Position numbers and translations under genes: made by a program. The notes below the pieces were generated by a model. The model saw only the letters and a list, made by a program, of their open reading frames with translations, did not search any database and was not told the DNA's origin. 32,747 nucleotides of DNA from an uncultured Rhodospira sp. (GTDB lineage: Bacteria; Pseudomonadota; Alphaproteobacteria; Rhodospirillales; Rhodospirillaceae), in assembly GCF_937138205.1 (NCBI RefSeq), contig NZ_CAKZOT010000041.1, positions 1-32,747 on the forward strand, given 5' to 3'. Positions 10,266 to 29,663 of this stretch are shown here, in pieces; the stretch's first letter is position 1, and the number at the start of each line of letters is the position of its first letter.

Positions 10266-10435
10266 TCCGGCGGCGGCGCGTCGTGTCGGGGGCCGGGGGT
10301 CCGGGTCCCGCCGGGGCTTGCGCCGCCGGCCCGAAGCGGGTGTAATCCCCGCCCTCACGCATCAGGCATGGACAGGGCGCGGGTCGGGCAGGGACCGGCG
10401 CAGGGTCGCGCCGCCCGCGGATTTGGGAGAAGAAC

Positions 10436-12537: not shown

Positions 12538-12580
12538 GTCGGGGCCTGTAGACTCGGGCGCGTCCGGCGTGACTCAGTGG

Positions 12581-12608: not shown

Positions 12609-12656
12609 GCGCGCCCTTGGCGGTTGCCGTTGCCCCGGGACAGTCTTTGTTGTTTT

Positions 12657-12683
12657 CGGCCCCACCATTGACGGGCGGGGCCG
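12657..12683 (+). promoter_or_regulatory. Leader hairpin before rpsM, possible attenuator
   Basis: CGGCCCC (12657-12663) is the exact reverse complement of GGGGCCG (12677-12683), with a 13-nt loop. The stem is followed by GGGCTTTCGTTTGTT. It lies between the promoter and rpsM, within the predicted leader. It could be a weak terminator acting on read-through from adk and on the new transcript, or a ribosomal-protein binding site. Which of these applies is inference. Confidence 0.45.
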
Positions 12684-12716
12684 GGCTTTCGTTTGTTGGA
12701 TTGAGGAGAGCGGACC

Positions 12717-13085
12717 TTGGCACGAATTGCGGGTGTGAATGTTCCGAGCGGAAAGCCCGTCGGCGTCGCGTTGACGTACATTTACGGGATCGGCCGCACC
12801 AAGGCCAGCCAGATTTGTACAAGCCTGGGGGTCGACTGGGGGCGTCGGGTCAACGATCTGGGCGAGGATGAGATCCAGCGCATCCGTGAGCTGATCGACA
12901 ACGACTACAAGGTCGAGGGCGACCTGCGGCGCGAGACGGCCATGAACATCAAGCGGTTGATGGACCTGGGCTGCTATCGCGGCCTGCGTCACCGCAAGGG
13001 GCTGCCGGTGCGGGGCCAGCGCACGCACACCAACGCGCGCACGCGTAAAGGCCCGGCCAAGCCGATCGCCGGCAAGAAGAAGTAG
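12717..13085 (+). CDS. rpsM: 30S ribosomal protein S13 (TTG start)
   Basis: S13 is a 30S head protein bridging to the 50S and touching P-site tRNA. The 122-residue product reads [20 protein letters not shown] after the initiator, then YGIGRTKA and the C-terminal [20 protein letters not shown], all diagnostic. The start codon is TTG at 12717, preceded by TTGAGGAGAGCGGACC. No in-frame ATG would keep the conserved N-terminus. First gene of the alpha cluster. Confidence 0.97.
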
Positions 13086-13269
13086 AAGTAAGAACCCGTC
13101 ATTGGGGGCGGCATCCGGGGCGGCTTCGCGGTCGGCTTGGACCGTCTGGCGGGCATTCGCGGTGGCCTTACTGGCGTCCGGCGGATGACGCGCCACGTGG
13201 CCAGCCCCCGCGTTTTTAGCACTCCCCATCGCACGTCGTTAGCGACGCATCCGAAGACAGGACAGGGTC

Positions 13270-13659
13270 ATGGCCAAACCAGCAGCGAGGCCGAAGCGCC
13301 GCGAACGGAAGAACATCACCTCCGGCATCGCGCACGTGAACGCCAGCTTCAACAACACCAAAGTCACCATCACGGACGTTCAGGGCAATGCCATTTCCTG
13401 GTCGTCGTCCGGCTCCCAGGGCTTCAAGGGGTCGCGCAAGTCGACGCCGTACGCCGCCCAGGTGGCCGCCGAGGATGCCGGCCGCAAGGCCCAGGAACAC
13501 GGCATGAAGACCCTTGAGGTCCAGGTCAAGGGGCCGGGATCGGGCCGCGAATCGGCCTTGCGCGCCCTGCAGGCCGTGGGCTTCACGGTGTCCGCCATTC
13601 GTGACGTGACGCCGATTCCGCACAACGGGTGCCGCCCGCGCAAGCGGCGTCGCGTCTAG
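13270..13659 (+). CDS. rpsK: 30S ribosomal protein S11
   Basis: S11 lines the mRNA path on the 30S platform. The 129-residue product contains [39 protein letters not shown] and the C-terminal [19 protein letters not shown]. Length matches the family. A 184-nt spacer separates it from rpsM, unusually wide; the spacer shows only a small CGTCG/CGACG hairpin (13234-13247) and no gene. Confidence 0.98.
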
Positions 13660-15567: not shown

Positions 15568-15943
15568 CGTCTGTCCCAAAAATAGGGGTCGAACGGCGGC
15601 ACCTATCGTTTCCCGAGCGGGCACCTCCACCATCTGGTGGAGGCAGCGTAGGGGCGCAGCCTGGGTCGTTTCGGTATCGAGCCTGCCAGGGTCCACCGAA
15701 AGGATGGTTTGCATAAAATCCACCCAAAGGCGGATTGAGGGCAGGGCGTGTCTCTGGTAGTTGTTGAATCTGAATACAGCCAAAGTTTCTGGGTGTGCGT
15801 CTGGCCAAACCGGCGACGGGCGCATCTCACCTGAATGGCCCGATGTGCGGCGGTGCGTTGGGACGGCGTTCGGAAGACGAGACGGGGTCCAATGCCGACG
15901 GTGGCAAGGTTGGGCCGTACGCATGAAAACGGGGAGCAGTAAC
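15568..15943. other. Non-coding stretch with a perfect inverted repeat
   Basis: I see no convincing gene in these 376 bases. The clearest signal is CCTCCACCA (15624-15632) and TGGTGGAGG (15635-15643), perfect inverted 9-mers almost abutting. As a hairpin it gives 8 bp with loop ATCT. No T-run follows on either strand. The base composition falls toward the downstream VPLPA gene. It probably holds that gene's promoter, but no clear -35/-10 pair could be picked. Confidence 0.45.
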
Positions 15944-16606
15944 ATGAAAACCATGGTGGGATTGATGGCCGGTGCGGCCATGCTTGCGGGCGCATCCGTT
16001 GCCAACGCGGCGATGATCGACTTGGGCGATGCCAGCTTCAGCGGGCTGCATGGGTTGGAATCGGGCAGTGTTATTCTTGGCGATGGCGTCACATTGACCG
16101 TTACAGCGAAGTCTTCTTGGGATTTTATTCCGGGTTGGGGTCCCGTTGAACCGACGATCGATCATACTTCTGAGGGGTTGGGGGTGCTCAACAACGCATG
16201 GGAGGACCCGCAGGTTGATGGAGAATGGTCCAACGATTCCTTGCTTTTCGAGTTCAGCCGGGCTGTGAATCTTATCAACGTATGGTTCACGGCGAATAAC
16301 GAAGAGTCGTGCTTCTGGTTTTTCTGCTCCGATGAGACGAACGACGATTGGAATATCTATGTGAATGACGTGCTTGTAGCGGTGGATGATCCCCAAAACC
16401 CGTTTCCGTTTGGTAACGATGGAATTGGTGCGATCCGTTTCGAAGCGTTGGCCGACGGCGCGAGCGACGACTGGCGCGTGAGTCAGATCGAGTACGAGGT
16501 GCCCGCCGTCCCCCTTCCCGCCGCCGTGTGGTTCATGCTGACGGCGCTGGGCGGCTTGGCGGGTAGCCGGTGGCTCAAGAAGGGCGCCAAGGCGGCCGCC
16601 GCCTGA
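15944..16606 (+). CDS. Secreted VPLPA-CTERM domain protein
   Basis: The 220-residue product has a signal peptide (MKTMVGLMAGAAMLAGASVANA, cut after Ala-Asn-Ala about residue 22), a mature acidic, aromatic region, and a C-terminal sorting signal. That signal starts VPLPAAVWFML, continues as a hydrophobic helix and ends in a Lys/Arg cluster, as in the VPLPA-CTERM family processed by exosortases. Two Cys near CFWFFC could form a disulfide. The start at 15944 has GGGGAG 7 nt upstream; an in-frame ATG at 15923 is possible. Codons are less GC-rich than neighbours: two 60-base lines counted by eye give 55% and 45%, which hints at transfer or recent acquisition. The mature function is unknown. No exosortase gene is in the window. 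Confidence 0.88.
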   Translation: MKTMVGLMAGAAMLAGASVANAAMIDLGDASFSGLHGLESGSVILGDGVTLTVTAKSSWDFIPGWGPVEPTIDHTSEGLGVLNNAWEDPQVDGEWSNDSLLFEFSRAVNLINVWFTANNEESCFWFFCSDETNDDWNIYVNDVLVAVDDPQNPFPFGNDGIGAIRFEALADGASDDWRVSQIEYEVPAVPLPAAVWFMLTALGGLAGSRWLKKGAKAAAA

Positions 16607-16711: not shown

Positions 16712-18808
16712 TCACTGTCGTCCCGACGGCTTGATCGGGATGCGCAGGCGGGGGCCGTCGGTACCACCCGACTCGCGACCGAACGGCCCCACCTCGCCGC
16801 GCTCCAGCCGCGCCAGCATGTCCGCCGCCTGGGCTACCCCATCCGCCCGCGCCTGCAGCAGCCACGCCCGCGCGGCGTCCGGGTCGGCCGGCGTGCCGCG
16901 TCCCTCGGCGACGAAGGCCCCGACCTTGTAGGCGGCCCAGGCGTTGCCCGCCCGCGCGCCCCGGTGATACAGCGCTAGCGCCCTGGCCTCGTCCTTCGGC
17001 ACACCCAGCCCGCGTTCGTACAGGCTGGCGATGGCGCCGGGGGCGGCATCCACGCCGTGGGCGGCGGCGCGCTGGTACCAGGCGAGCGCCACGGCCGGAT
17101 CGCCCGGCTGTCCCGCCGCGCCGCGCTCCGCCGCTTTGCCCGCCTCGTACAGCGCCCAGGTATGACCGCCCGCCGCCGCCGTGCGAAAATGGGCGAACGC
17201 TTGGCGCAGCGTGTCCGGCCCGGCTCGGTCCTCCGCCAGCAGCATCTTCCCCAGGGCGGTGTGCGCCTGGGCGACGCCACGCGCGGCGGCCTCGCGGTAC
17301 CAGTGCCAGGCCCGCGCCGGGTCCGGCGCCACCGGATCCGCGCCGCGCTCGTACAGCCGGCCCAGCTCCAACGCCGCCCAACCGTGCCCGGCCGCCGCCG
17401 CCGCGCGGAACAGCGCCACCGCCGCGACCGGGTCGGGCGGGCCGCCATGACCCCGCAGCACCATGCGGGCGAGGTCTTTGGTCGCCTGCGCCGCCGCCTT
17501 TCCCGAGCCGGTCGCCCGCACATGCTGTAACCAGGATCGCGCCGTGGCGTGATCGGCTGGCAGCACGCTCGGCAGACCGTCCCGCGCCAGCCGGGCCAGT
17601 TGCATCGCCGCCGGCGCGTGCGTGGCGGCCACCTCGCCGAGCAAGGACAGCGCCCGCCGCGCCGACGCCCCGTCGCCGCGCGCCAGCAGCAGGCGCGCGC
17701 CCTCGACCGCCGCGTGCGCGTGGCCGCGCGCGGCGGCCTCGACGAACCAGGCCAGCGCCTCGTCGGCGCGTCCCTGGTGCTCCAGCAGGCGCCCCATGTA
17801 GCGCGTGGCCTCGCCGTTGCCGGCCTCGGCGGCGGTGCGCAGATGGGCCACCGCCGCCGCCGGATCGGGCGCAACACCGTCCGCCCCCTCGGCCAGCAGC
17901 TTGCCCAGGGCGGTGTGGGCGGTGATGCGGCCGGCGTCGGCGGCGTCCTCCAGCAACCGGCGGGCGCGGCGGGGGTCGTGGGGCAGGGCGTCGTCGGCGT
18001 CCAGTAATGCCCGTGCTACCGTGACCTTGACGTGCGCCGGGGCCTCCGTTTCGATCCGCTCCAGCAGGGCCAGCCCGGCGGCCCGGTCGACCGGCCCGCC
18101 GTCGCCCAAGATCCGCATCCGCGCCAAGGGGAGCGCGGCGCGGTATTCGCCGGCCTCCATCGCCGCCGTCAGAAGATGGGTGGCCCGGCCCGGATCACGC
18201 GCCATGTGCCGCCCGTCGATCAGGGCTTCGCCCAGGCGGAACTGGGCCACCGGCTCGTCCTCGGCGACGGCCTGTTCGAGCAACGCCAAGCCCTCGGCGC
18301 GGGCACCCGCGTGGCCGTCCTCGGCGCGGTCGAGCAGTAGCGTCCCCAGGTCGGCGCGCGCCCGGCCAATGTCCGCCGCCACCGCCCGGCGCAGGAAGGG
18401 TTCGGCCGCCGCCGGGTCCTTGTCCAGGCCACCCCAGCCGTACAGCAGGCTCATGCCGACATAATGCGCCGCGGGGGCGAATCCGTCGGCCGCCGCCTGC
18501 CGCGCCAGGGCCAACGCTTTTTCCTGGTCGCGGGGACCGAGGGTGTCCGAGCCGTACAGGTGGGCGAGCTGGAATTGGGCCTTGGTGTGGCCGGCCGCCG
18601 CCGCTTGCGCCCAGGCCTCAAATGCCGCCTCGGGCTGGCCTTCGAGATTGCGCCGCGCGCCCTCGATGTAGCGGTGGTCTGCCAGTCCGCGCGCCAGGAA
18701 GCCATCGGCCGGGACGGCGCAGGCGGCCAACAGACCACACAGGGACAGTATGGTCCCGGGCAAGGCCCGAAAGCGCCACCAAGAATAGGGCAGGTTCCAT
18801 CCGCGCAT
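16712..18808 (-). CDS. Sel1-repeat lipoprotein
   Basis: The 698-residue product begins MRGWNLPYSWWRF, followed by a hydrophobic stretch and the lipobox Leu27-Ala-Ala-Cys30, so it is predicted to be a lipoprotein. The rest is a solenoid of about 16 Sel1-like repeats of roughly 36 residues. Each has the pattern small-Gly-x-x-x-Ala-x-x-x-Leu-Gly-x-Leu-(Tyr/Leu)-x-x-Gly, for example GHGWAALELGRLYERG and GVAQAHTALGKML. Sel1 arrays act as protein-protein scaffolds; some family members work in polysaccharide secretion (AlgK-type proteins), which would fit the divergent glycan cassette. The role is inferred from context only. An upstream in-frame ATG (18865) would put 19 residues before the signal and is less likely. 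Confidence 0.88.
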   Translation of the reverse strand: MRGWNLPYSWWRFRALPGTILSLCGLLAACAVPADGFLARGLADHRYIEGARRNLEGQPEAAFEAWAQAAAAGHTKAQFQLAHLYGSDTLGPRDQEKALALARQAAADGFAPAAHYVGMSLLYGWGGLDKDPAAAEPFLRRAVAADIGRARADLGTLLLDRAEDGHAGARAEGLALLEQAVAEDEPVAQFRLGEALIDGRHMARDPGRATHLLTAAMEAGEYRAALPLARMRILGDGGPVDRAAGLALLERIETEAPAHVKVTVARALLDADDALPHDPRRARRLLEDAADAGRITAHTALGKLLAEGADGVAPDPAAAVAHLRTAAEAGNGEATRYMGRLLEHQGRADEALAWFVEAAARGHAHAAVEGARLLLARGDGASARRALSLLGEVAATHAPAAMQLARLARDGLPSVLPADHATARSWLQHVRATGSGKAAAQATKDLARMVLRGHGGPPDPVAAVALFRAAAAAGHGWAALELGRLYERGADPVAPDPARAWHWYREAAARGVAQAHTALGKMLLAEDRAGPDTLRQAFAHFRTAAAGGHTWALYEAGKAAERGAAGQPGDPAVALAWYQRAAAHGVDAAPGAIASLYERGLGVPKDEARALALYHRGARAGNAWAAYKVGAFVAEGRGTPADPDAARAWLLQARADGVAQAADMLARLERGEVGPFGRESGGTDGPRLRIPIKPSGRQ

Positions 18809-18923
18809 GTCGATCGCCCACGAGAACCGCAACAATACTTGCATTGAATGTGTGCACTCAATCAAAATATCATGTATCGGGTGGGATGTGTCGAGGGCGG
18901 ATCACAGGGCAGGGGGGCATTCG
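18809..18923. promoter_or_regulatory. AT-rich divergent promoter region
   Basis: This spacer separates the minus-strand Sel1 lipoprotein and the + strand glycan cassette. It is clearly AT-rich between 18831 and 18880. A dyad ATTGA-N10-TCAAT sits at 18843-18862. On the + strand TTGAAT (18844-18849) and TATCAT (18868-18873) are 18 bp apart. On the minus strand TTGAGT and TATTGT read as a possible pair with 18-bp spacing, overlapping the same dyad. Overlapping divergent promoters under one regulator are plausible but unproven. Confidence 0.45.
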
Positions 18924-21900
18924 GTGGCGGTCGAACTGGCGCGGGCGCGGGACTCGGCGACCGCAGGATGCGCTCCGGCGGACCAGGAGGCGGCCCTGGT
19001 CGCCCGCCTGCCGCCGTCCTTGCGCGCGCCGATCTTTCTGCCGACCGACCGTCTTGATCCCGCCGAACGCGTGGCCGGGCTGCGCCGTGTCGTGGATGTA
19101 TACGAGGGCCGCTGGGCCGCCGAACACCGGCCGCGCCTCGCCGCCCTGCGCGACCGACACAGGGGTGAGCGGATTTTCGTGCTGGGCAACGGGCCGAGCC
19201 TGGGCCGCGTCGACCTCGACAGCCTCGCCGGACAGGTGACCATGGGGGTCAACGGCCTGTTCCTGGCCTTTCCGGAGACCCGGTTCCGCCCGACCTACTA
19301 CGTGGTTGAGGACCATCTGGTGGCCGAGGACCGCGCCGCCGACCTGAACGCCCTGCCGGCCGGCATCACACGGCTGTTTCCGCTCAATCTGGCTTATGTG
19401 CTGAACGAGGGGCCGGACGTGGTCTGGTTCGACCATCGGCCCCGGCCGGGGTATCCGGATCGCTTCGACGTCTCGCTGGACGCGCTGGCCTGTACGTACG
19501 CCGGCTGCACGGTGGCCTTCACCTGCATCCAGCTGGCGGTGTTCCTGGGCGCGCGCGAGATCGTTCTGCTGGGCATCGACCTGGATTACGCCATGCCGCC
19601 GGATGTCGAACGGACAGAGGGTGGCGGGCCGGGTGTGCTGGACATGGCCAGCGACGATCCGAACCACTTCCACCCGGACTACTTCGGCAAGGGCAAACGC
19701 TGGCACGACCCGCAGGTCGAGAACATGGGCCGGGCCTTCGCGGCGGCGCGGGACGTGCTGGGCGGGATGGGGGTCCGGCTGATCAATGCCACCCCCGGCG
19801 GGCGGCTGGATCTGGTGCCGCGCGTGCCGCTCGACCGGGTTCTGGCGAACGACACGGCGCCGGAACCGCGCCTGCTGGTGCTGGACCTGACGCCAATCGG
19901 TGGCCTGTCGGCCACCGGGCAGGTGAAGGCGGCCTTGATGGCGCCGTGGCGGGGCGGGCGCCTGCTGGCGATCACGCCGGACGCCGCGCCGGGGCGGTTT
20001 TCCGTGCATCACCCGGACGGCCGCATCGAACCGGATGTGGACGCCGCGACGGCGGCGGCGTGGGCGCGGTCCTTCGCGCCAGAGGCGGTTTACTACCGGC
20101 CGCAGCCGACGCGCGGTCACCTGCACCCGCTGGCGCTGGACCTGATCGAGGGACTGGGCCTGCCTCTGATCCTGCACCTGATGGACGACTGGCCGGCGTT
20201 GCTGGCCGGCACCGATCCGCTGGTGCATGGGGTCTGGCGGACGGACCTGGACTGGCTGGCGCGGCGGGCCGCCGTGCGCCTGGCCATCGGCGAATCCATG
20301 GCCACGGCATTCCGCGACCGCTACGGCGGCGGCGATTGGGAGCCCCTGGCCAACGGCATCGACCCGGCCGACTGGCCGGCGCGGGCCGTGCCACCGGGGG
20401 CCGGATGCCCGGAGCGGCCGTTCGACCTGCTGTACGCCGGCGCGCTGGCCGAGGACATGAACCGCGCCGCCGTGCGCGACGTGGCCGAGGCGGTGGACGC
20501 CGTCAACCGTGCCGCCGGGCGGTTGATCGTGCGGTTCGAACTGCGGGTGCTGCCACTCTGGCTGGCGCCGGCGCGGGCGCTGGCCTCCGGGCTGACGGGC
20601 GTTTCGGTGTGCGCGGCGGAGGGCGAGGACGCGGCCGCCTACCGCGCGCGGCTGCTGGCCGCCGACGGGCTGCTGATCGCCTATGCGTTCGACGAGCACA
20701 GCCGGCTCTACACGCGCCATTCCCTGGCCAACAAGCTGCCGGAGGTGCTGGCGGCGGGCGCGGCGGTGCTGGGCTATGGCCCGGCCGAGCAGGCAACGAT
20801 GGCCTGTCTGGCGCAGACGGGTGCGGCCCTGATGGTCACCGAGCGCGATCCGAACGCGGTGCGCGCGGCGGTGCAGCGCATGGCCACCGACCCGGGCCTG
20901 ATCGCGCGCCTGGGGGCGGCGGGGCGGGCGACGGCGCTCGACGCCTACACCCTGGCCCCGCGCCGGGACCGCTTGCGCGCGCTGGTACGGGGGGCGACGC
21001 GGGGCCGGCGGGTGCTGTCGGCTGATCACCCGCGCCTCGATGGTGCCCGGTTGGACGAGGCGGCGTTGATGCTGGCGCTGGCCCGCTTCCAGACCACGGC
21101 GCCGGGCCGGCTGGTCGACGTGGGCGCGCACCGGGGCGGGTTCCTTGGCCCCTTCGTGGAGGGTGGATGGTCCGTGCTGGCCGTCGAGCCGGAGCCCGCC
21201 AATCACGCGGCGCTGATGGCGCGGGTCAAGGATCAACCGCGCGTCACGGTCGAGGCGGTGGCCCTGTCCGACGCCCCTGCCGAGGCCGCGCCGCTGTTCA
21301 CCGCGCCCGAAAGCACCGGCGTCGCCACCCTGTCGCCCTTCCTCGACAGCCATCGGGAGACGGCGCGGGTGCCGGTCGACACCCTGACCGCCGTGCTTGA
21401 TCGCCACGGCGTGGGCGAGATGGAGGTGCTCAAGGTGGACGCCGAGGGCGGTGATCTGCGCGTGCTGCTGGGCCTGGACTGGGGGCGCTGGCGGCCCCGC
21501 CTGGTGATGGTCGAGTTCGAGAACCGCAAGACCCTGCGTCTGGGGTATTCGATGGGGGATCTGGTGGCGCTGCTGGAGGGGCGGGGCTACGTCGTCTTCG
21601 TCAGCGAGTGGCACCCCGTGGTGCGCTACGGGGCGCGGCACGACTGGCGCCGCCTGTTCGCCTGGCCGCCGCAGGACCACGAGCCACTGCCGGACGCCGA
21701 CGCCTGGGGCAATCTGATCGCGGTGCATCCGGAGGCCGGATTGCCCGACGACGATGCGCTGGCCGGCATGGTGCGGGCGGCCCTGACGCTCGATCCCCGG
21801 CCGGAGCCGGTGCAGGACACTGAACCGCTGCCAGCCCCCTCCCCGGATCCGGCGCCCAGGCCCGAGCCGGTCATGGCGCCGACCCCGATGCCGCCGCCTG

Positions 21901-23405
21901 ATCCGTGGTGGCGGCGGGGCGGGCGGCTCGCCGCCGAGATGGGCGCGGTCCTGGGCGGCTGGCGCGCGCCCCTCGCCCTGGGGTTGGTGGGCGCGGCGGC
22001 TGCCGGTCCCTGGCTGCCGACGCCGTGGGCGTCAGCGCTGGGCGCGGCGACGGTGGCGGGGACGCTCGGCTTCGTCGCCTATGGTCATGTACGGGCGCGG
22101 CGCCTGGATATGCTCGACCGTCATGCCCTGAAACGCGACCTGGAAGCCAAGCTGAAGCGCCATGTCGGCTGGGTGCGGGACGATCTGGCTGGGCTGGATG
22201 GCCGCCTCGACGCCCGCGCCGTCGCCCTGGAGACCCGGGTCTCGGCCGATCTGGCCGCCGACCGCCACGCCCGCGAGGCCGCCTTGACCCGGTGCCAGGA
22301 GCAGGTCCAAGCGGCCGTGATGGCGGCGCTAGGCGAGACCAATGATCGGCTCGGCACGGCTGAGGCGACCATCGCCACCCAAGACCAACGCCTTTCTGGC
22401 CTCGACGAAGCCACCCAACGCCAGGATCGGACCTTGCGGGGAATGGCGGAGGCCCTGGCCGGGCTGCGGGCCGACCTGTCGCGCGAGAACGCTGCCCGCG
22501 ATGCCGCGTGGCGCGAGGCCGTGACAGAGGCTGAACGGGCGGCGGCGCGCGGCGACCGCGACACGGTGGCCGCGCTGACTCGGGCCTTGGCCGAGGACCG
22601 CCAGCGCGCCGGTGCCGCGCTGGCGGCGTTGCGCGGGCAACTTGAGGCGGTGACGCCGGCGCGGTTCCAGCCCTTCTCGCGCGCTCTGTCCGAGACCGAT
22701 GTGGAGCGGCTGCGATCGGTGTGGCTGCCGGCGCTCGGGCTGCCCGACATGACGCCGCGCGCGCTCGGCTATCTGGCCGATCGCCTCGTGGAGGTCGAAC
22801 GCCGGGGCGGCGGTCGGCTGGCGTGCAGCCTGTCGGCGGCGCTGCTTCGGGCCTTGGCCGCGCGCGCCAGTCCAGGGCCGGACCCGCGGGCGGTCGAGGT
22901 GGGGGTGCTGTTCGGGCTCGGGCTGGCCACGCTGGCGGCGGGCGTGGAAGGGCAGGGCCGCCGACTCCGCCTGCTCGGTATTGATCCGCTGGACGGCGGC
23001 GGGTATGGCGCCGACGCCGACGGGGTCACGGGGGCGCGGGTGACGGCAGACCAGGTGTGGGCGACCCTGTACCGCGTTGGGGTGGCGCGCCGCGCCGTGA
23101 CCCTGATCCGCCGTGCGAGCCAGGATCCGCTGGCCGTGGAACGGGCGCGCGCCTGGGCCGGGCGCGAGGGTATTGGTCTGTTGGTGCTCGACGGGCGCCA
23201 CGACCGCGCGGGCCTGGAGGCCGACTGGCACCACTTTGCGCCGCTGCTGCGTCCGGGTGGGCTGGCGGTGGTCGACGATTGCGGCGCCGCCGCGTGGTCG
23301 GACGTGGCGCCCTTTGTCCTGGAGGTGGCGGCGCGCACGCCCGGATTCCGCCTGCTGGGCACGGACTGGGATATGGCGGTTCTGTGCCGCGAGGCGACGC
23401 CGTGA
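18924..23405 (+). CDS. Giant fusion: DUF115 - GT-B glycosyltransferase - FkbM methyltransferase - TM/coiled coil - methyltransferase-like domain
   Basis: A 1493-residue protein with at least five parts. Residues about 80-300: DUF115 (MptE-like), with GNGPSL at 88-93 and DDPNHFHPDYF at 244-254. About 315-695: a GT-B glycosyltransferase-like domain, with HLMDDWP and the late SLANKLPEVLAAGAAVLGYG motif. About 725-940: FkbM methyltransferase, with the SAM loop LVDVGAHRGG at 730 and LKVDAEGGD at 836-844. A Pro-rich linker (about 956-994) leads to two hydrophobic segments (about 1015-1060) and a coiled coil (to about 1250). The C-terminal domain (about 1320-1493) resembles Methyltransf_24, with AVEVG at 1323-1327, DGRHD at 1423-1427 and VVDDCG at 1450. 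A GTG start at 18924 after AGGGGGGC is preferred because the upstream frame is the divergent promoter; the exact start is uncertain. It overlaps the next gene by 4 nt. Predicted role: synthesis and methylation of a surface glycan at the membrane. Confidence 0.87.
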   Translation: MAVELARARDSATAGCAPADQEAALVARLPPSLRAPIFLPTDRLDPAERVAGLRRVVDVYEGRWAAEHRPRLAALRDRHRGERIFVLGNGPSLGRVDLDSLAGQVTMGVNGLFLAFPETRFRPTYYVVEDHLVAEDRAADLNALPAGITRLFPLNLAYVLNEGPDVVWFDHRPRPGYPDRFDVSLDALACTYAGCTVAFTCIQLAVFLGAREIVLLGIDLDYAMPPDVERTEGGGPGVLDMASDDPNHFHPDYFGKGKRWHDPQVENMGRAFAAARDVLGGMGVRLINATPGGRLDLVPRVPLDRVLANDTAPEPRLLVLDLTPIGGLSATGQVKAALMAPWRGGRLLAITPDAAPGRFSVHHPDGRIEPDVDAATAAAWARSFAPEAVYYRPQPTRGHLHPLALDLIEGLGLPLILHLMDDWPALLAGTDPLVHGVWRTDLDWLARRAAVRLAIGESMATAFRDRYGGGDWEPLANGIDPADWPARAVPPGAGCPERPFDLLYAGALAEDMNRAAVRDVAEAVDAVNRAAGRLIVRFELRVLPLWLAPARALASGLTGVSVCAAEGEDAAAYRARLLAADGLLIAYAFDEHSRLYTRHSLANKLPEVLAAGAAVLGYGPAEQATMACLAQTGAALMVTERDPNAVRAAVQRMATDPGLIARLGAAGRATALDAYTLAPRRDRLRALVRGATRGRRVLSADHPRLDGARLDEAALMLALARFQTTAPGRLVDVGAHRGGFLGPFVEGGWSVLAVEPEPANHAALMARVKDQPRVTVEAVALSDAPAEAAPLFTAPESTGVATLSPFLDSHRETARVPVDTLTAVLDRHGVGEMEVLKVDAEGGDLRVLLGLDWGRWRPRLVMVEFENRKTLRLGYSMGDLVALLEGRGYVVFVSEWHPVVRYGARHDWRRLFAWPPQDHEPLPDADAWGNLIAVHPEAGLPDDDALAGMVRAALTLDPRPEPVQDTEPLPAPSPDPAPRPEPVMAPTPMPPPDPWWRRGGRLAAEMGAVLGGWRAPLALGLVGAAAAGPWLPTPWASALGAATVAGTLGFVAYGHVRARRLDMLDRHALKRDLEAKLKRHVGWVRDDLAGLDGRLDARAVALETRVSADLAADRHAREAALTRCQEQVQAAVMAALGETNDRLGTAEATIATQDQRLSGLDEATQRQDRTLRGMAEALAGLRADLSRENAARDAAWREAVTEAERAAARGDRDTVAALTRALAEDRQRAGAALAALRGQLEAVTPARFQPFSRALSETDVERLRSVWLPALGLPDMTPRALGYLADRLVEVERRGGGRLACSLSAALLRALAARASPGPDPRAVEVGVLFGLGLATLAAGVEGQGRRLRLLGIDPLDGGGYGADADGVTGARVTADQVWATLYRVGVARRAVTLIRRASQDPLAVERARAWAGREGIGLLVLDGRHDRAGLEADWHHFAPLLRPGGLAVVDDCGAAAWSDVAPFVLEVAARTPGFRLLGTDWDMAVLCREATP

Positions 23406-24262
23406 GCCGCCCCGTGGAAGCCATCGGGCCGGGCGGGCGGCGGCTGGCGGTGATCCTGCCGTCGCTGCTGTGCAACTACGATTGCCCGTATTGCCGCATC
23501 AAGGCCAAGCGGCGCCAACCGGGCGAGCGGCCCTTGTCGGCGTGGCAACAGGCTCTGATCGGGATCGGGGCGCCGCTGGTGCATGTCGCGGGCGGCGAAC
23601 CCACGGTGTTGAAGGGCTTCGCCGACTTCGTGCTGGGCTATCCGGCGCCCTTGCGCATGACCACCAACCTGTGGCGTCCGCCGGAGGACTGGCCGCCCGG
23701 ATTTTGGGAGCGGTTCGAGTACGTCACCCTGTCGTTTCATCCGGATTCTGCCGAGTTCGAGGCGTTCGCCGCGCGGGCCGCCACGCTGGCGGCGCTGTTC
23801 GATCGGCGCGCGGCGCTGCGGCCGCGCCTGACCTGCACCATTGTCGCCGATCCGCGCTGGATCGACTCCCTGCCCGGCTGGATCGCGCGGCTGCGGGTGC
23901 TGGGGCTGGAGGCGCGCGGGCAGTACCTGAACCGGCCGGTGGGCGATCCGGCGCCGGTCTATTCTGACGCCGATCTGGCCCGGCTGCGGGCGCTCGGCCT
24001 TCCCATGAGCAGTGATCAGGCGGGGCAGGAAGCACACGAGGACCGCCCCCGGCTGTGCGACGCGGGCATGGCCTATTGCCATATCGACCCCACCGGCGCC
24101 GCGCGGCGCTGCTCGCGCGACCGCCTGTCGCTGGGCAATCTGTTCGACGGCACGTTCGCGTGGCTGGACGGCGAGCGCCGCTGCGACACCGCCTGCACCG
24201 AGGCCTGCGACCGCACGTTCGCCCGGTTTCGGCCGCTGGCGGACGGGGAGGCCGTGGCATGA
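23402..24262 (+). CDS. Radical SAM protein with auxiliary cysteine cluster
   Basis: The 286-residue product has the radical SAM motif CNYDCPYC (Cys24, Cys28, Cys31), which binds the 4Fe-4S cluster that cleaves S-adenosylmethionine. VAGGEPTV (about residues 60-68) is the usual GGEP motif. The C-terminal part has six more cysteines (219, 226, 237, 261, 265, 269; the last three as CxxxCxxxC) in a SPASM/twitch-like pattern, suggesting a second iron-sulfur cluster. The GTG start overlaps the upstream stop by 4 nt. Between glycosyltransferases it could modify a sugar, lipid carrier or peptide; the substrate is unknown. It could also be a maturase for a peptide not seen here. Confidence 0.88.
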   Translation: MSRPVEAIGPGGRRLAVILPSLLCNYDCPYCRIKAKRRQPGERPLSAWQQALIGIGAPLVHVAGGEPTVLKGFADFVLGYPAPLRMTTNLWRPPEDWPPGFWERFEYVTLSFHPDSAEFEAFAARAATLAALFDRRAALRPRLTCTIVADPRWIDSLPGWIARLRVLGLEARGQYLNRPVGDPAPVYSDADLARLRALGLPMSSDQAGQEAHEDRPRLCDAGMAYCHIDPTGAARRCSRDRLSLGNLFDGTFAWLDGERRCDTACTEACDRTFARFRPLADGEAVA

Positions 24263-25275
24263 CGGCGGCGCCGTGGGTGCGGGTGGTGATCGTGACCATG
24301 AACGAGGGGCCGCTGCTGGGCCAGTGCCTGACGGCGCTGTTGGCCCAGACCGATCCGGCGTTCGAGGCTGTGGTGGTGGCCAATGGCAGTGATCCGGCGG
24401 TGCTGGACCCAGAGCTGCCGGACGATGCGCGCGTGCATGTGGTGCGGTTGCCGGACAACGTGGGCTATTCCCTGGCCAACAACCTTGGCGCCGACCATGA
24501 TACGGGGGGACCGGTGCCGCCGTTCGTGGCCACCCTCAACCCGGATGCGTTTCCGGCGCCGCACTGGCTGGCGGCGCTGCGCGCGGCGGCGGACCGGCAT
24601 CCCGGCGCGGCGGCCTTTGCCAGCCTGCAACGCGACGCCGCCGACCCGGGCCAGTGCGACGGCCTGGGCGATGAGATGGCGCCGGTCTGCCTGGTGTGGC
24701 GCGGTGGCATCTGGGGCCGCGTGCCGCCGGTCGAGCGGTTGGTGGAAGGTGAGTGCTTCTCCGCCTGCGCCGCCGCCGCGCTGTACCGGCGGGCCGCCTG
24801 GGACGCCGTCGGCGGCTTCGATGGCCGGTTCTTCTGTTACCTGGACGATACAGACTTGGCGTATCGGCTGCGCCTGCGCGGCGGGGCGGTGGTGTTCGTG
24901 CCCACGGCCCAGGTGCGCCATGTGGGCTCGGCCACCAACGGCGTGGATAGCGACTTCATCCGCTACCACACCAGCCGCAACCGCGTGTGGCTGTATGTCA
25001 AGAACACGCCGGGCGTGCTGGTCTGGCTGCTGCTGCCGGCGTTCGTGGCTGTGGTGGGGCTGTTGCTGGCGCGGGCGGCGTGGCGGGGCCGGCTGGCGAT
25101 TGATGCGGAAGGCGTGCGGGACGGCCTGCGCGGGCTGCCGCTGGCGTGGCGCCAGCGACGGGCGATCCAGGCCGCGCGCGCGGTGCCCTGGTGGACCGTG
25201 GCGCGGGCCATGACCTGGGATCCGCGCCGGTTCCTGCGCCGGGCGGCGCGGCGCGGGCGGGTGCGGGCGCCATGA
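24259..25275 (+). CDS. Glycosyltransferase family 2, membrane-associated
   Basis: The 338-residue product has a GT-A fold: VRVVIVTMNEGPLLGQCL at the N-terminus, VVVANGSD, then NPDAFP (residues 94-99), the metal/nucleotide-sugar site. Asp-rich LDDTD at 195-199 in the segment GGFDGRFFCYLDDTDLAYRL is the acceptor/base motif. This arrangement matches rhamnosyltransferase-like (WcaE/RfbF) GT2 enzymes. A hydrophobic helix at about 252-275 anchors it to the membrane. It transfers a sugar from a nucleotide donor; sugar identity is unknown. ATGA overlaps link it to both neighbours. Confidence 0.93.
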   Translation: MTAAPWVRVVIVTMNEGPLLGQCLTALLAQTDPAFEAVVVANGSDPAVLDPELPDDARVHVVRLPDNVGYSLANNLGADHDTGGPVPPFVATLNPDAFPAPHWLAALRAAADRHPGAAAFASLQRDAADPGQCDGLGDEMAPVCLVWRGGIWGRVPPVERLVEGECFSACAAAALYRRAAWDAVGGFDGRFFCYLDDTDLAYRLRLRGGAVVFVPTAQVRHVGSATNGVDSDFIRYHTSRNRVWLYVKNTPGVLVWLLLPAFVAVVGLLLARAAWRGRLAIDAEGVRDGLRGLPLAWRQRRAIQAARAVPWWTVARAMTWDPRRFLRRAARRGRVRAP

Positions 25276-28076
25276 CGCGGGTGGCGGTGGTCGGCGAGGA
25301 TGTCACGCACCGCCCGGGCGACGCGCGGGACTGGTGCTTGCGGCTGCCGGCCTGCGACCGGCTGGAGGCGCCGGGCGGGGCGCGGTCTCTGACCGCCTCC
25401 GTGCTGTGGGCGGCGTGGCGCGCGAGGGTTGGCGTCGTGGCGGTGCGCGACGCGGGCGGGACATGGCGCACGGCATCGCCGGGACGGCTGCTGCTGAAGC
25501 GTCTGGGCCGGCGGGCACGGGGGAGCCTGCCCGGCGCGGCGGCGCGGGCGTGGCGCCGGGTGCTGCGGACGGACCTGCCGGTCCTGGGCCGGGCCGAGGG
25601 GCCTGTGGTGATGGTGGTCCCGTCGCTGGCCGCGAACGGCGCCGAGCGCCAGATGCTCGCTCTGGTGTCGGGGCTGGTGGCGCGCGGCTGGCCGGTGCGG
25701 GTGCTGGCCAAGCATCTGCACGACCGCCCGGGCGCGGCCGACCTGCTGCCGGCGTTGGAGCGTCTGGGCGTCCTGGTGACTGTGTGGACCGATCCGCCAC
25801 CGGCCGACACCCCGGATATGGCACGCATGGAGCGCGCGGCCTCGGGACTGCCGGATGCCCTCGCTGGGGACCTGCTGGCGGTGGCCGGCTGGCTGGCGGT
25901 GCTGAAGCCGCGCGCGGTTCACGCATGGCTGGACACGGCGGCGGTCACCGCCGGCGCGGCGGCGGCGGTGCTGGGGGTGCCGCGCGTGGTGGTGGGGCTG
26001 CGCAATCTGGCGCCTGATCACCTGGGGCACCCGTTGGCGCGCGCGCTGCGCCCGGGGCTGGCGGTGCTGGCGCGGCATCCGGCGGTGACGGTGACCGCCA
26101 ACGCGCGGGCCGTGGCGGACGATCACGTTCGCTGGGCCGGGATCGCGGCGCCGGTGGTCGTCCCGAACGGGGTCGGGCTTGCGAAGACACGGGCGCGCGC
26201 CGACCGTTCGGCGCTCGTGCTCGGGGTGTTCCGGCTGGTGACGCACAAGCGGCCTGGCCTGTGGCTCGACGTGGCCGGGCGGGTTCGCGCGGCGCGGCCG
26301 GACGCGCGGTTTCGCCTGCTCGGGGACGGGCCGATGCGTGACGGCCTGCGGGCTCGCGCGGCGGCGTTGGGCGTGGACATGCCGGGGCGTGTGGATGACG
26401 TCGCGCCGCACCTCGCCGAGGCCGCCGTCCTGCTGCATGTCTCCGCCGCCGAGGGCCTGCCCAACGCCGTGCTTGAGGCGCAGGCCGCTGGCGTGCCGGT
26501 GGTGGCGGCCGCGGCCGGCGGACTGGCCGAGGCGCTGGCCGGGGCGCCCGTCGATTCGCCCACGGTCGAGGCGTTGGCGGCGCGGGTGCTGGCGGTGCTC
26601 GACGATCCGGCCGCGCGGGAGCGCCTGGCGGACGAGGGACGGGCACACGCGGCGCGCTTTTCCATGCCGGCGATGGTGGCGCGGTATGAACGGCTGTACG
26701 AGGCGCCGCCGACTCCGGCGCCTGACCGGCACCCCCTGACCGCCCGCCTGCTCCCGGCGGGACTGGCGCGGAGCCTGGGGACGCTGGCCCGCCTTGCACG
26801 CCTTGGCGAAGGGCGGGAGATCGCGCGGCGTTTGGGGGTGCTGGTGGGCGGACCGGCTTCTTCCCGTGCGCCGTCATTGCGAGGAGCGCAGCGACGAAGC
26901 AATCCAGGCGCGGTGGATTGTGCCAATCGCCCTGGATTGCTTCGCCTTCGGCTCGCAATGACGGATCGTTTGGGGCGAGGTGATTTGTCTCTCCGCCTCG
27001 TCTGCATCGGCGAGGCGCTGGCCCGGGACGGCGCGCCGCTGAGTCTGCTGGAGTTGGCGCGGGGCCTTGTCGCCCGGGGAAAGGCCATCCCGGCGCTGGC
27101 GGTGTCGTTTCACGACGGGCCGTTGCGGGCGGACTGGCAGGCGGCGGGCTGGCCGTTGCGGGTGGTCGATCCCGGCCGGCCGCTGGTGGCGCGCCACCTG
27201 GACCGGCACGCGGCGCGGCTGGCGGAGGCCGTGACCGAGGTTGGGGCCGACGTTGTCCTGGTCAACGGCTTGCGGGCGTTCGCGGGGGTGGAGGCGGCGA
27301 CACGGGCCGGGCGGCCCTGCGTCTGGGTGATCCGCGAGCCGGGGCCGGAGGCTCTGGCCGATCTGTCCGCCGTCCTGCAAGAGCGGGCGCTGGCGGCTTT
27401 CGGGTTGGCCCACCGCGTGGTGTTCGTCTCGCGGGCGACGGCGGACGCCTGGACCGCCTGGGCGCCGCCCGATCGCTCGGTGGTGATCGCCAATGCTCTT
27501 CCCCAGGCCGCGCCGGTGGTAGCGCAGCGCGATCCGGAAACAACCACACTCCTCGCCGCCGGGGCGCTGTGTCCGCGCAAGGGGCCGCTCGACCTGATCG
27601 CCGCGCTGCCGCTGTTGCCGGATGACATGCAGGCGCGGCTGCGGGTGTGCTGGGCGGGGCGGGACGTGGACGGCTACGCGGCCGTCGTTCGCCGGGCCAT
27701 CGGGAGCCTGCCGGAGCCACTGCGGTCCCGCGTGGACCTACTGGGAGAGGTGGCCGACATGGCGCCCCTGTGGGCGGCGGCCGACATCGCCGTCTGCCCC
27801 AGCCATGCCGAGGCCGCGCCGCGTGTTGTGCTGGAGGCGCGCCGCGCCGGCCTGCCCCTGGTGGCGACGGCGGTGGGTGGTATTCCGGAACAGGCGGCGC
27901 ACTGGCCCGACACGTGGCTGGTGCCGCCGGGCGATCCGCCGGCCCTGGCACGGGCGTTGGCGGGGGCGTGGCGGGCCGGGCCTGCGCCCGGGCCGGCGAG
28001 CGATATCGCTGACCGGCACGAGGCGATGCTGGCGGCTTACGCCGAGACCCTGGCCACTGTGGTGAGGGATCCATGA
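25272..28076 (+). CDS. Tandem GT-B glycosyltransferase (two GT4-like domains)
   Basis: A 934-residue protein made of two GT-B glycosyltransferases. The first spans about residues 113-480, with VVPSLAANGAERQ at its start, FRLVTHKRPGLWL and the Glu394-x7-Glu402 retaining-GT4 motif (AEGLPNAVLEA). The second spans about 575-931, with VCIGEALARDGAPLSLLELA, GALCPRKGPLDLI and Glu847-x7-Glu855 (AEAAPRVVLEA). Residues 1-110 are a less conserved N-terminal region. The domains are joined by a linker encoded in part by a palindromic repeat (26871-26964), so the fusion may be secondary; an ATG at 26958 inside the repeat could start a separate second enzyme. 4-nt overlaps occur at both ends. Each half probably adds a sugar to the same growing glycan. 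Confidence 0.92.
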   Translation: MTRVAVVGEDVTHRPGDARDWCLRLPACDRLEAPGGARSLTASVLWAAWRARVGVVAVRDAGGTWRTASPGRLLLKRLGRRARGSLPGAAARAWRRVLRTDLPVLGRAEGPVVMVVPSLAANGAERQMLALVSGLVARGWPVRVLAKHLHDRPGAADLLPALERLGVLVTVWTDPPPADTPDMARMERAASGLPDALAGDLLAVAGWLAVLKPRAVHAWLDTAAVTAGAAAAVLGVPRVVVGLRNLAPDHLGHPLARALRPGLAVLARHPAVTVTANARAVADDHVRWAGIAAPVVVPNGVGLAKTRARADRSALVLGVFRLVTHKRPGLWLDVAGRVRAARPDARFRLLGDGPMRDGLRARAAALGVDMPGRVDDVAPHLAEAAVLLHVSAAEGLPNAVLEAQAAGVPVVAAAAGGLAEALAGAPVDSPTVEALAARVLAVLDDPAARERLADEGRAHAARFSMPAMVARYERLYEAPPTPAPDRHPLTARLLPAGLARSLGTLARLARLGEGREIARRLGVLVGGPASSRAPSLRGAQRRSNPGAVDCANRPGLLRLRLAMTDRLGRGDLSLRLVCIGEALARDGAPLSLLELARGLVARGKAIPALAVSFHDGPLRADWQAAGWPLRVVDPGRPLVARHLDRHAARLAEAVTEVGADVVLVNGLRAFAGVEAATRAGRPCVWVIREPGPEALADLSAVLQERALAAFGLAHRVVFVSRATADAWTAWAPPDRSVVIANALPQAAPVVAQRDPETTTLLAAGALCPRKGPLDLIAALPLLPDDMQARLRVCWAGRDVDGYAAVVRRAIGSLPEPLRSRVDLLGEVADMAPLWAAADIAVCPSHAEAAPRVVLEARRAGLPLVATAVGGIPEQAAHWPDTWLVPPGDPPALARALAGAWRAGPAPGPASDIADRHEAMLAAYAETLATVVRDP
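26871..26964. repeat. Palindromic intergenic-type repeat lying inside a coding sequence
   Basis: A 94-base nearly palindromic element. The outer arms CCGTCATTGCGAG (26871-26883) and CTCGCAATGACGG (26952-26964) are perfect over 13 bp. The inner arms CGAAGCAATCCAGG (26895-26908) and CCTGGATTGCTTCG (26931-26944) are perfect over 14 bp. A small GATTG/CAATC stem closes the tip. The CGTCATTGCGAG...GAAGCAATCC core matches a dispersed bacterial repeat I recognise from many genomes, which normally lies between genes. Here it is read through as part of the tandem glycosyltransferase. Confidence 0.9.
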
Positions 28077-28444
28077 AACGCGCGGCTCTGGTGGTGCTGT
28101 TCTTATCGTTGACTGCCCTGGCCGGCGCGCGGCTGGGGCTGGCGGTGTTCGTGCCGCCGCCCGCCGACCGGGCCGAAGCCCTGTATGTCACGGCGATCCG
28201 CGACCATCGCCCCGCCCTGCTGCACGACGCGGCGGCGGCGTGGAAGGATGCTCTGGCGTGGTCCCCGGCCGATCCGTTCGCCTGGAGCGGCCTCGCCTGG
28301 ACCGAGGCGGCGCGCGGGGCGCCGGCGCCCTATGTGGATCGGCTCATGGGCCGAGCGGCGGCCCTGGGGCCGCACGTGCCGGAGATCGCGCGGGCGCGGG
28401 CGCTGTGGGAGTCCCGCCGGCGCCCAGCAGAACCAGCACCGTGA
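28073..28444 (+). CDS. Small membrane-anchored TPR-like protein
   Basis: The 123-residue product starts MKRAALVVLFLSLTALAGA, a single N-terminal membrane or signal segment, then a helical region with TPR-like features (ALLHDAAAAWKDALAWSPAD, PFAWSGLAWTEAARG). Its ATG overlaps the upstream stop by 4 nt. The final 101 bases overlap, antisense, the 3' end of the O-antigen-ligase gene. TPR-like partners often accompany O-antigen ligase/Wzy-type proteins, so it may be such a partner; that is inference. No defined family was recognised. Confidence 0.8.
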   Translation: MKRAALVVLFLSLTALAGARLGLAVFVPPPADRAEALYVTAIRDHRPALLHDAAAAWKDALAWSPADPFAWSGLAWTEAARGAPAPYVDRLMGRAAALGPHVPEIARARALWESRRRPAEPAP

Positions 28445-29663
28445 CCGCCAGCGCCGGCGTCTGCATGGAAAAGTCCAGCAGGCCGTGCAGCCCGGCCATG
28501 AGTCCGGCCGCCGCCGCCAGCCGGGCCAGGGGATCGCCGTCGCGGCGGGCATGGCGCGCGGCCTCCGCGACCAGCAGGACAAATGCGCCCATCAGGGCCA
28601 GCGCCGCCGGGATGCCCAGCTCGGCCATCAGTTCCAGCGGAACCGAATGGGCCTGGAAGACCAGGGTGTCGGTCAGGCTGGTGTCGCGGACGTGTTTATA
28701 GACCACCGGATAACTGCCCAGGCCGTGGCCCGTCCAGGGCGCCGCGCTGATGGCCTCCAGCGTCACCCGGTAGATGTCCCAGCGCAGGTCTCCCAGCACG
28801 AATTGGGGATCCAGGCGGGCGAAGAACCGGCCCTGTCCCGCCAGGACCAGGGCCACCGGCGCCAGCACCACGGCCACCGCGCCGGCGCCCAGGGCGCGCC
28901 AGGGCAGGGGGCCGGGCCGCAGCAGCACGAGCACCGCGAGGCCCGCGCCGACGCTCGCCAATCCCCAGCGGGACTCGGTGAGCACCGCCGCCAGCAGGCC
29001 GACTCCGGCGAGGACGCGCCACATCCACTTGGCGTGGGTCCGCGTCGCGGTCTCTGCCGCCAGCATCGCCGCCGCCACGCCGACCCCGGCATAGACGCAA
29101 TAGGCATTGCGATTGACGAAGGTGGCCGTGGTGACGTCCTGGTAGATCCACTTGTCCCACCACCAGATGGTGTAGGAGCCCGTGGATTGGACGATGAGCG
29201 CGTAGACGGCCAAAGCGCCGGTGATCAGTGCCAGGGCCTGCACCACCCTGTGGCGGGCGTGCTGCCCGGCCAACACCGCCGCGCCGAGCCACGCCGCCGC
29301 GCCGTATCCGGCCAGCCGAAGGGCGGCCTCGGCCGTCGCGCCCGGTGTGATCGACAGCGAGCCCCACGCCGGGTGTCCGGTCAGGGCGCGGATCCCCTCC
29401 CAGTGCGGCAGCGCCACACCGAATCCGGGCGCCGCCTGCACCAAACTCCAGCCCAGCGCGCCACCGAACAGCGCCAAGGCAGTGGCCCGGGCGGGAGTCC
29501 ATCGGACGGAGTCTCGCTGCCACGCCGCCAGCGCCGCGACCGCGAACAGCAGCAGCGACAACAGCGCGCTCGACCCCGGCCGGTTGCTGGCCAGGGGCAG
29601 GGGTGCCCACGCTAGCACCGCGATCAGCGCCGCAAGCGGTGTAAGACGAAACGGGATGGACAT
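28344..29663 (-). CDS. O-antigen ligase / Wzy-like polymerase family membrane protein
   Basis: The 439-residue product has about 10-12 hydrophobic helices. It carries the family segment FVNRNAYCVYAGVG (near residue 190), then a periplasmic-loop-like region with GHGLGSYPVVY and AHSVPLELMAELGIPAAL, as in the Wzy_C/O-antigen ligase family. Members transfer undecaprenyl-linked glycan onto lipid A-core or protein, or polymerise repeat units. The strong binding site expected before ATG 29663 is not seen. The C-terminus is a Pro/Ala-rich tail whose codons overlap the opposite gene. Placement beside the glycosyltransferases suggests it acts on their product. Ligase and polymerase cannot be told apart here. 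Confidence 0.9.
   Translation of the reverse strand: MSIPFRLTPLAALIAVLAWAPLPLASNRPGSSALLSLLLFAVAALAAWQRDSVRWTPARATALALFGGALGWSLVQAAPGFGVALPHWEGIRALTGHPAWGSLSITPGATAEAALRLAGYGAAAWLGAAVLAGQHARHRVVQALALITGALAVYALIVQSTGSYTIWWWDKWIYQDVTTATFVNRNAYCVYAGVGVAAAMLAAETATRTHAKWMWRVLAGVGLLAAVLTESRWGLASVGAGLAVLVLLRPGPLPWRALGAGAVAVVLAPVALVLAGQGRFFARLDPQFVLGDLRWDIYRVTLEAISAAPWTGHGLGSYPVVYKHVRDTSLTDTLVFQAHSVPLELMAELGIPAALALMGAFVLLVAEAARHARRDGDPLARLAAAAGLMAGLHGLLDFSMQTPALAVTVLVLLGAGGTPTAPAPARSPARAAPGPPLGP

Follow-up and report, generated by a model that had tools for sequence, protein, structure and literature searches.

A putative chain-length ruler and terminator of glycan assembly, built as one multimodule protein, in Rhodospira and its relatives

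In a window of 32,747 nucleotides from an uncultured Rhodospira sp. (the whole stretch of DNA analysed here), a single gene encodes a protein that joins a DUF115 domain, a GT-B glycosyltransferase domain, an FkbM methyltransferase, a membrane hairpin with a long coiled coil and, at its tip, a Methyltransf_24 (MT24) domain. The reading that we favour, with modest confidence, is that this protein would act as a ruler of chain length and as terminator in glycan assembly that depends on an ABC transporter, in the manner of WbdD or WbbB, with its polarity reversed and polymerase-side modules fused into the same chain. The argument draws on the order and conservation of the modules, a swapped tip enzyme, the association of its type with a domain of the exporter ATPase Wzt, and a change of coiled-coil length in pairs of heptads. 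A first-pass annotation had already described five parts in one frame, and all five were recognised again, the DUF115 and glycosyltransferase parts scoring below threshold in the window protein and being supported through homologues and structure prediction, respectively.

One reading frame, its modules and its neighbours

The frame is intact in the ORF listing of the window, and the GTG at 18924 taken as start in the first-pass annotation is as plausible as the ATG at 18807, a purine-rich aggggg lying 5' of the GTG. Frame length is weak evidence of coding, since at 70% GC the window abounds in long spurious frames, among them an antisense ORF of 952 aa opposite the fusion gene. Judged instead by base composition (third-position GC tracks the fusion frame from about 19.2 to 23.4 kb), Pfam matches and conservation, the frame is to be taken as truly coding. 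The full-length fusion was present in all six genomes of the genus examined, the five others (Rhodospira trueperi, Roseospira navarrensis, R. visakhapatnamensis, R. marina and a Rhodospira MAG) carrying it at 67–79% identity. This excludes a sequencing fusion or assembly artefact, which had been named at first pass as the finding that would undo the protein, and a single frame joining the five parts can be upheld. Outside the genus, none of 54 relatives had the full-length protein, 16 gave partial matches and 38 none. The same module order, with extra N-terminal modules, was found in Hyphomonas, Henriciella, another Hyphomonad and the cyanobacterium CCP2, and Hellea also carries the chain, the start of which is cut off by the contig end. 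Homologues with the same order, proposed as a check at first pass, thus exist within and beyond the genus, and the source genome is not alone in having this architecture.

Features of the fusion gene and its neighbours, with positions in the window
Feature	Position	Strand	Remarks
Multimodule glycan-assembly protein (putative function)	18807..23405	+	ORF, Pfam, homologues; 1532 aa from ATG or 1493 aa from GTG
DUF115 / MptE-like domain	19107..19862	+	residues ~101-352; GNGPSL at 127, DDPNHFHPDYFG at 283; distant profile similarity to GT42 sialyltransferases
GT-B (GT4-like) glycosyltransferase domain	19863..21011	+	residues ~353-735; sub-threshold by Pfam, structure prediction
FkbM methyltransferase domain	21024..21701	+	residues ~740-965; motifs DVGAHRG, VEPEP, KVDAEGGD
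Predicted membrane hairpin, two hydrophobic segments	21948..22091	+	residues ~1048-1095
Long helix / coiled coil, proposed ruler	22095..22652	+	residues ~1097-1282
Conserved linking motif (FSRAL...W...L) and Methyltransf_24 domain, proposed terminator	22674..23402	+	residues ~1290-1532
Radical SAM protein	23402..24262	+	GTG start overlaps fusion stop (GTGA); kept in 5/5 relatives
Family 2 glycosyltransferase (GT2)	24259..25275	+	ATG overlaps radical SAM stop by 4 bases; kept in 5/5 relatives
Tandem double GT4 glycosyltransferase	25272..28076	+	934 aa; start overlaps GT2 stop by 4 bases; kept in 5/5 relatives
O-antigen ligase/polymerase-type membrane protein (Wzy_C, PF04932)	28344..29663	-	kept in 5/5 relatives

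The FkbM domain was the clearest of the N-terminal modules (PF05050 at residues 771–929, E 7e-17, 62.5 bits against a cut-off of 22.7, with DVGAHRG at 771). In the window protein the match to MptE-like/DUF115 (PF01973) reached 26.3 bits, below the cut-off of 34.6, and that to Glyco_trans_1_2 reached 20.4 bits, below 25. DUF115 exceeded the Pfam cut-off in all five homologues scanned (40–112 bits), and 28 columns were invariant across the 36 rows of its alignment (A3; the alignments cover part of the fetched relatives, with 49 rows in A1). An AlphaFold model of residues 60–965 had a mean pLDDT of 90.2, and its best Foldseek matches were GT4 enzymes, namely BshA (2e-11) and the methylmannose polysaccharide mannosyltransferase 7qsg (4e-11), so that the GT-B identity of residues ~353–735, sub-threshold by Pfam, is supported by structure prediction.

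A profile of the 36 DUF115 rows matched the GT42 sialyltransferase Cst-II (7e-5), an archaeal-type hydroxymethyl-dihydropterin pyrophosphokinase (1e-3) and 5mu5 (1e-3), which we take to be a Maf protein. Given this mixture, the domain is probably, not certainly, a glycosyltransferase. Its likeness to DUF115/MptE-like proteins, Maf and Cst-II consists in the GNGPSL region as aligned by profile, and the relation is remote. The matches to Cst-II and 5mu5 would also suit glycosylation of a protein such as flagellin, DUF115 acting as a Maf/GT42-like nonulosonic acid transferase and the rest of the chain modifying a short protein-linked glycan. We consider this improbable: no flagellar gene was recognised among the scanned neighbours (a MotX match of the Sel1 protein, 62 of 330 bits, is an effect of the Sel1 repeats), and a Wzt-type ATPase was matched in 26 of 79 related loci (E 1e-12 in the fetched stretch).

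The modules also occur apart. DUF115 and GT-FkbM are adjacent separate genes in Niveispirillum, and in an alphaproteobacterial MAG (L064) four neighbouring genes encode GT-FkbM, GT4, TM-coiled coil-MT24 and DUF115. In a planctomycete MAG (L075), TM-coiled coil-MT24 lies directly 3' of a Wzt-type gene. A Nitrospirae locus (L050) encodes GT-FkbM-TM-coiled coil (short)-DUF115, followed by a separate coiled coil-MT24 gene. The constant part in further Hyphomonads is FkbM-hairpin-coiled coil, to which other modules are added; DUF115-like matches persist in L150–L155, and GT-B is absent from L151–L155. Some chains (L041, L156, L159, L172) reach no further than the hairpin or a short stretch of coiled coil. 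Relatives are rare, matching at E 1e-30 in six of 385 genomes of the host's class, among which the full N-terminal part was seen in the source genome (G000) only, one genome (G340) having it split over two genes, another (G440) having GT-FkbM-hairpin and the other three having single domains. The Hyphomonas family gave matches in 11 of 105 genomes and the class of L040 in two of 369. With the FkbM query, six of 292 cyanobacterial genomes matched: four through short frames that stand alone and two through large proteins, one of which (in G816) is without hairpin and coiled coil.

The fusion gene is the first of a run of four genes joined by 4-base stop/start overlaps and continuing with the radical SAM, GT2 and double GT4 genes. 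A Sel1-repeat gene diverges upstream of the run and the Wzy_C gene is convergent downstream, adjoining the operon in all six genus genomes. These genomes hold 3–6 Wzy_C genes each, a count that does not tell a ligase from a polymerase, and the flippase family PF13440 (1–3 matches per genome) was of no help in assigning a pathway role to Wzy_C; a Wzy-dependent route thus retains some likelihood. An ORF at 28185–29612 (+) was rejected as a gene of its own, being antisense to the Wzy_C gene. A phage origin of the window's left half was also rejected, since a PHROGs search of 10 selected frames yielded a single weak match, to an exonuclease, and the gene for ribosomal protein L17 lies between these frames and the fusion. 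No exporter or flippase family was found among the subset of window proteins scanned. Both this result and the constant Wzy_C neighbour would suit glycan decoration without any ruler, with both methyltransferases acting on internal repeat residues, the coiled coil serving to oligomerise or space them, and the neighbouring Wzy_C protein polymerising; FkbM enzymes do often act as decorators. Three kinds of evidence speak against decoration: a length change confined to the coiled coil, an exchangeable distal enzyme and nearby exporter genes outside the genus.

Membrane hairpin, coiled coil and tip enzyme

The membrane segment noted at first pass is again predicted, but by hydropathy as a two-helix hairpin rather than a single helix. 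It is weakly hydrophobic in the window protein (KD 1.36 and 1.29) and more strongly so in the 10 other full-length proteins measured; two hydrophobic segments (KD of at least 1.2) precede the coiled coil in all 11, membrane association being a matter of prediction. Given the positive residues on either side of the hairpin, both flanks are probably cytosolic. Heptad periodicity of the following helix exceeded that of shuffled sequences in all 11 full-length proteins (at most three of 300 shuffles as high).

A model of residues 960–1532 (mean pLDDT 71.1) shows a low-confidence linker, short helices, the long helix and then the methyltransferase. The long helix (~1072–1282) was modelled as a monomer at low confidence (pLDDT 46–78) and the tip methyltransferase mostly above 85; the structure prediction proposed at first pass has therefore yielded confident folds for the N-terminal part and the tip, and a low-confidence helix between them. 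In this model the candidate terminator sits at the distal end of the long coiled coil.

The tip domain matches Methyltransf_24 (PF13578) at residues 1363–1492 (E 1e-10, 42.7 bits against a cut-off of 26.3), and E405, D434, D503, H506, D531 and D532 are invariant in 14 of 14 rows (numbering of alignment A2; adding 959 gives the residue). Its nearest fold by Foldseek is MeT1 (6g7d/6g80, E 3e-11), which presumably acts in methylmannose polysaccharide synthesis. Further fold matches were mixed, many being sugar O-methyltransferases (MycE, MycF, CalS11, SpnH, NovP) and others enzymes such as the tRNA enzyme TrmR. The likeness to MeT1 and to TylF/MycF-type sugar O-methyltransferases thus lies in the fold, and these enzymes are free-standing, unlike the fused tip domain. 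The C-terminal methyltransferase is the probable terminator, a role for which the first-pass annotation had not picked it out.

From hairpin to tip, the chain measures 153–259 residues in 15 MT24-type proteins and 98–269 in three with a sulfotransferase tip. The close relatives L152 and L153 have coiled coils of 153 and 248 residues, a difference of 95, with 49% identity over the aligned part, and their flanking enzymes align without gaps (FkbM 79% and methyltransferase 90% identical). The coiled coil of L153 holds a 42-bp repeat in 7.1 copies, and 42 bp correspond to 14 residues, or two heptads. A similar pattern is seen within the genus of the source: between L033 and L035 the FkbM domains are 82% identical and the methyltransferases 82% with one gapped column, and the coiled coils are 71% identical with 56 gapped columns. 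A large length change limited to the coiled coil speaks against the decoration scheme and fits a ruler; a mere spacer could also show it.

In the same distal position, the tip is MT24 in 15 proteins (the window protein, L031–L038, L042, L045 and L150–L153) and a sulfotransferase (PF00685, above cut-off) in three (L040, L154 and L155). The MT24 tip was found in alphaproteobacteria and the cyanobacterium, and the sulfotransferase tip also in a gammaproteobacterium. The FkbM domain of L155 is 57–63% identical to those of four MT24-type Hyphomonads and 51% to that of the sulfotransferase-type L040, whereas L155 and L040 share 57% identity in their sulfotransferases; the tip enzyme has therefore probably been exchanged at least once. 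L154 shows a weak contrast, with an FkbM domain 59% identical to L155, 55–57% to MT24 types and 52% to L040. The FkbM domains gave a tree of poor resolution (11 of 24 inner branches open). Placing the three sulfotransferase rows on it takes three changes, and 0% of the 200 bootstrap trees unite them, but a single origin of the three tips would still be compatible with the starred branches.

Exporter genes and the proposed mechanism

In 22 of the 26 loci with a Wzt-type ATPase, the match to the Wzt of L038, which has 456 residues, continues past residue 360 and so enters its C-terminal part. A Wzt-type gene lies nearby in 10 of the 12 non-genus loci with an MT24 module: in six of the first eight (L036 being without and L045 a 7-kb contig) and in all four later MT24-type Hyphomonads, which also have Wzm and a GDP-mannose dehydratase. 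The Wzm proteins scanned from L038, L042, L050, L151, L152 and L153 exceed the ABC2_membrane cut-off.

The type of tip enzyme goes with the C-terminal domain of Wzt. Searching anywhere in the genome (PF14524, E 1e-3), we found Wzt_C in 17 of 17 MT24-type genomes and none of three sulfotransferase-type genomes (Fisher 0.0009, kinship ignored). It also occurs in two of five further genomes where no MT24 module was seen in the locus (17/17 against 2/8, Fisher 1.6e-4, kinship ignored). Within the Hyphomonads the contrast is 7/7 against 0/3, the three being two of the sulfotransferase type and one without tip enzyme (Fisher 0.008, kinship ignored). In these counts some genomes are incomplete MAGs and that of L075 is left out; most Hyphomonad Wzt_C matches lie below the Pfam cut-off, several key ones at 21–28 bits. 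For G000–G005, G060 and G064 the domain was counted genome-wide, nearness to the fusion not being part of the count. Wzm/Wzt genes are also present near the fusion genes of the sulfotransferase-type L154 and L155, but the Wzt frames there (254 and 292 aa) match the ATPase part only, with no Wzt_C match.

Exporter genes close to most non-genus MT24 modules, and a distal enzyme that is swapped on a constant base with its type following the Wzt C-domain, argue against decoration without a ruler, which we regard as rather unlikely. Another notion is that DUF115, and not MT24, is the terminator, the coiled coil spacing it from the polymerase. The Nitrospirae chain, where DUF115 follows the hairpin and short coiled coil and MT24 is encoded separately, would agree with such a role, as would the persistence of DUF115-like matches in L150–L155 and, going by part of PMC11231755, the fact that known Kdo terminators are glycosyltransferases. 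DUF115 nevertheless sits on the base side of the hairpin in the window protein, and what follows the Wzt C-domain is the distal enzyme; we give this notion a slightly smaller chance even than protein glycosylation.

Across the genus the fusion locus has no exporter gene, and candidates lie elsewhere. On contig 91 of the source genome, unlinked to the fusion, a wzt-like gene follows a membrane-protein gene. Its product is 36–39% identical to Hyphomonad Wzt proteins over near full length, and its C-domain (Wzt_C 26.4 bits, cut-off 30.4) was found in all six genus genomes and in none of the 54 others. Fusion and C-domain being both confined to the genus, they count as one lineage and not as six events. 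The presumed Wzm upstream had no Pfam match (against a Wzm-like frame of L046 it matched at 26%), and a GT4 gene about 1.8 kb from the wzt candidate and, further off, an MGH1-like glycoside hydrolase gene lie in its vicinity; its pairing with the fusion protein is therefore a guess, and the candidate may serve another glycan. The strongest Wzt_C protein of the source genome is a different Wzt, on contig 31.

In the ruler-and-terminator mechanism that we propose, the DUF115 and GT-B modules, together with the GT2 and double-GT4 gene products, would lengthen a lipid-linked glycan on the cytoplasmic side of the inner membrane. The hairpin would anchor the base, and the helix of ~190 residues (~28 nm if fully helical) would reach into the cytosol. 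Once the chain spans the length of the helix, the MT24 domain at the tip would O-methylate its non-reducing end and growth would stop, the capped chain then being recognised by the C-terminal domain of the Wzt ATPase and exported. The FkbM domain might, at a guess, methylate within the chain or its acceptor. The membrane-tethered assembly line with a coiled-coil ruler imagined at first pass thus gains comparative support from the exporter genes near most non-genus relatives, the swappable tip covarying with the Wzt C-domain and the two-heptad length change, but in the genus itself the exporter candidate lies outside the locus.

Relation to known ruler systems

The measuring of sugar chains by bacteria is best understood in a handful of enterobacterial systems. 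A family in which no sequence kinship to WbdD was detected, and which combines polymerase-side modules, anchor, ruler and cap enzyme in one chain, would show that the ruler-terminator solution has been built more than once. More tentatively, the relatives may make up a new modular class, with variable N-terminal glycosyltransferases, FkbM, hairpin, a heptad-repeat ruler and a cap enzyme that has changed between O-methylation and sulfation in step with the domain by which the exporter reads the cap, which would amount to a sulfate type of termination; we hold this to be doubtful. If true, it would offer a natural experiment on ruler length besides that type of chain termination. Natural pairs make these ideas testable: L152 and L153 for length, and methyltransferase against sulfotransferase tips for cap chemistry.

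A literature search gave no paper on a fusion of DUF115, FkbM and glycosyltransferase or of FkbM, coiled coil and glycosyltransferase, and none on a fusion architecture in the DUF115 / PF01973 literature as judged by titles and abstract starts. Among the matches listed for the ruler, terminator and sulfotransferase literature, no title dealt with this architecture or with sulfate caps; the survey of Mann, Kimber and Whitfield 2019 (Glycobiology) lies outside that search and may list such proteins. Among PDB sequences at E 0.01, a profile of the C-terminal part found three, MeT1, MycE and GldL, and no match to WbdD or WbbB. The terminator domain having shown no kinship to WbdD in this test, we do not file the protein as a WbdD member by descent; it would work like WbdD and WbbB by analogy.

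In the published systems, as far as described in the parts of the sources used here, the terminator sits at the distal end of the coiled coil, away from the polymerase (PMC11231755), and a carbohydrate-binding module of the exporter's Wzt reads the cap (PMC11231755, PMC3482155). WbdD of E. coli O9a/O8 likewise has a methyl-type cap enzyme on a membrane coiled coil and a cap read by the Wzt-linked module (part of PMC3482155), but it carries no fused polymerase, and the kinase of O9a WbdD has no counterpart in the fusion. Closest in construction are WbbB (Klebsiella O12) and ORF6 (Klebsiella O7), which, by the same portion of PMC11231755, also carry their terminator and glycosyltransferases on a single polypeptide with a long coiled coil and work with an ABC exporter. 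Compared with their description there, the fusion has reversed polarity, with glycosyltransferases N-terminal and the proposed terminator C-terminal; it has a mid-chain membrane hairpin and extra FkbM and DUF115 modules, and Methyltransf_24 takes the place of the Kdo transferase or methyltransferase-kinase. Its predicted geometry would thus match that of the published ruler systems, with the direction of the chain reversed.

Genes flanking the fusion gene

The radical SAM gene overlaps the fusion gene and, as read directly from the sequence, its product appears to end in SPASM-like cysteines. A radical SAM/SPASM gene is also present in the cyanobacterial locus. On the other side, a gene for a Sel1-repeat protein, kept in all five genus relatives, diverges from the fusion gene. 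A candidate VPLPA-CTERM (exosortase-type) surface protein is encoded downstream of ribosomal protein L17.

Coordinates of the features discussed
Feature	Stretch	Position (strand)
Candidate VPLPA-CTERM protein	Window	15761-16606
Sel1-repeat protein	Window	16712-18865 (-)
Radical SAM gene	Window	23402-24262
Radical SAM/SPASM gene	L036 (cyanobacterium)	12000-13052
wzt-like gene	L118 (G000, contig 91)	7716-9823
Second DUF115 gene	L120 (G000, contig 66)	8787-9515
Permuted arrangement	L050 (Nitrospirae)	8922-13645
42-bp tandem repeat	L153 (Hyphomonad)	9042-9341
Stand-alone protein	L150 (Hyphomonad)	12848-13630
FkbM-hairpin-coiled coil-sulfotransferase protein	L154 (Hyphomonad)	4321-8988
FkbM-hairpin-coiled coil-sulfotransferase protein	L155 (Hyphomonad)	5653-11457

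Unlinked genes of the same genome

Elsewhere in G000, unlinked to the fusion gene, there is a wzt-like gene of a type that, among the 60 genomes, is restricted to the genus. It is preceded by a presumed wzm and followed, on the opposite strand, by GT4 and MGH1-like glycoside hydrolase genes. The second DUF115 gene of G000 (a 318-aa frame) is 42% identical to the fused domain.

Module order and sulfotransferase-type relatives

In the Nitrospirae locus the hairpin is followed by a short coiled coil and then by DUF115, and the coiled coil-MT24 part is a separate gene. The tandem repeat, equal to two heptads, falls within coiled-coil coding sequence. The L150 stand-alone protein, encoded between the fusion gene and wzt, is a 35% relative of the sulfotransferase domain of the gammaproteobacterial L040; a Pfam scan of it gave no matches at 0.01. 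Short Wzt and Wzm genes occur in the stretches of both sulfotransferase-type proteins, and the glycans of these two loci are possibly sulfate-capped.
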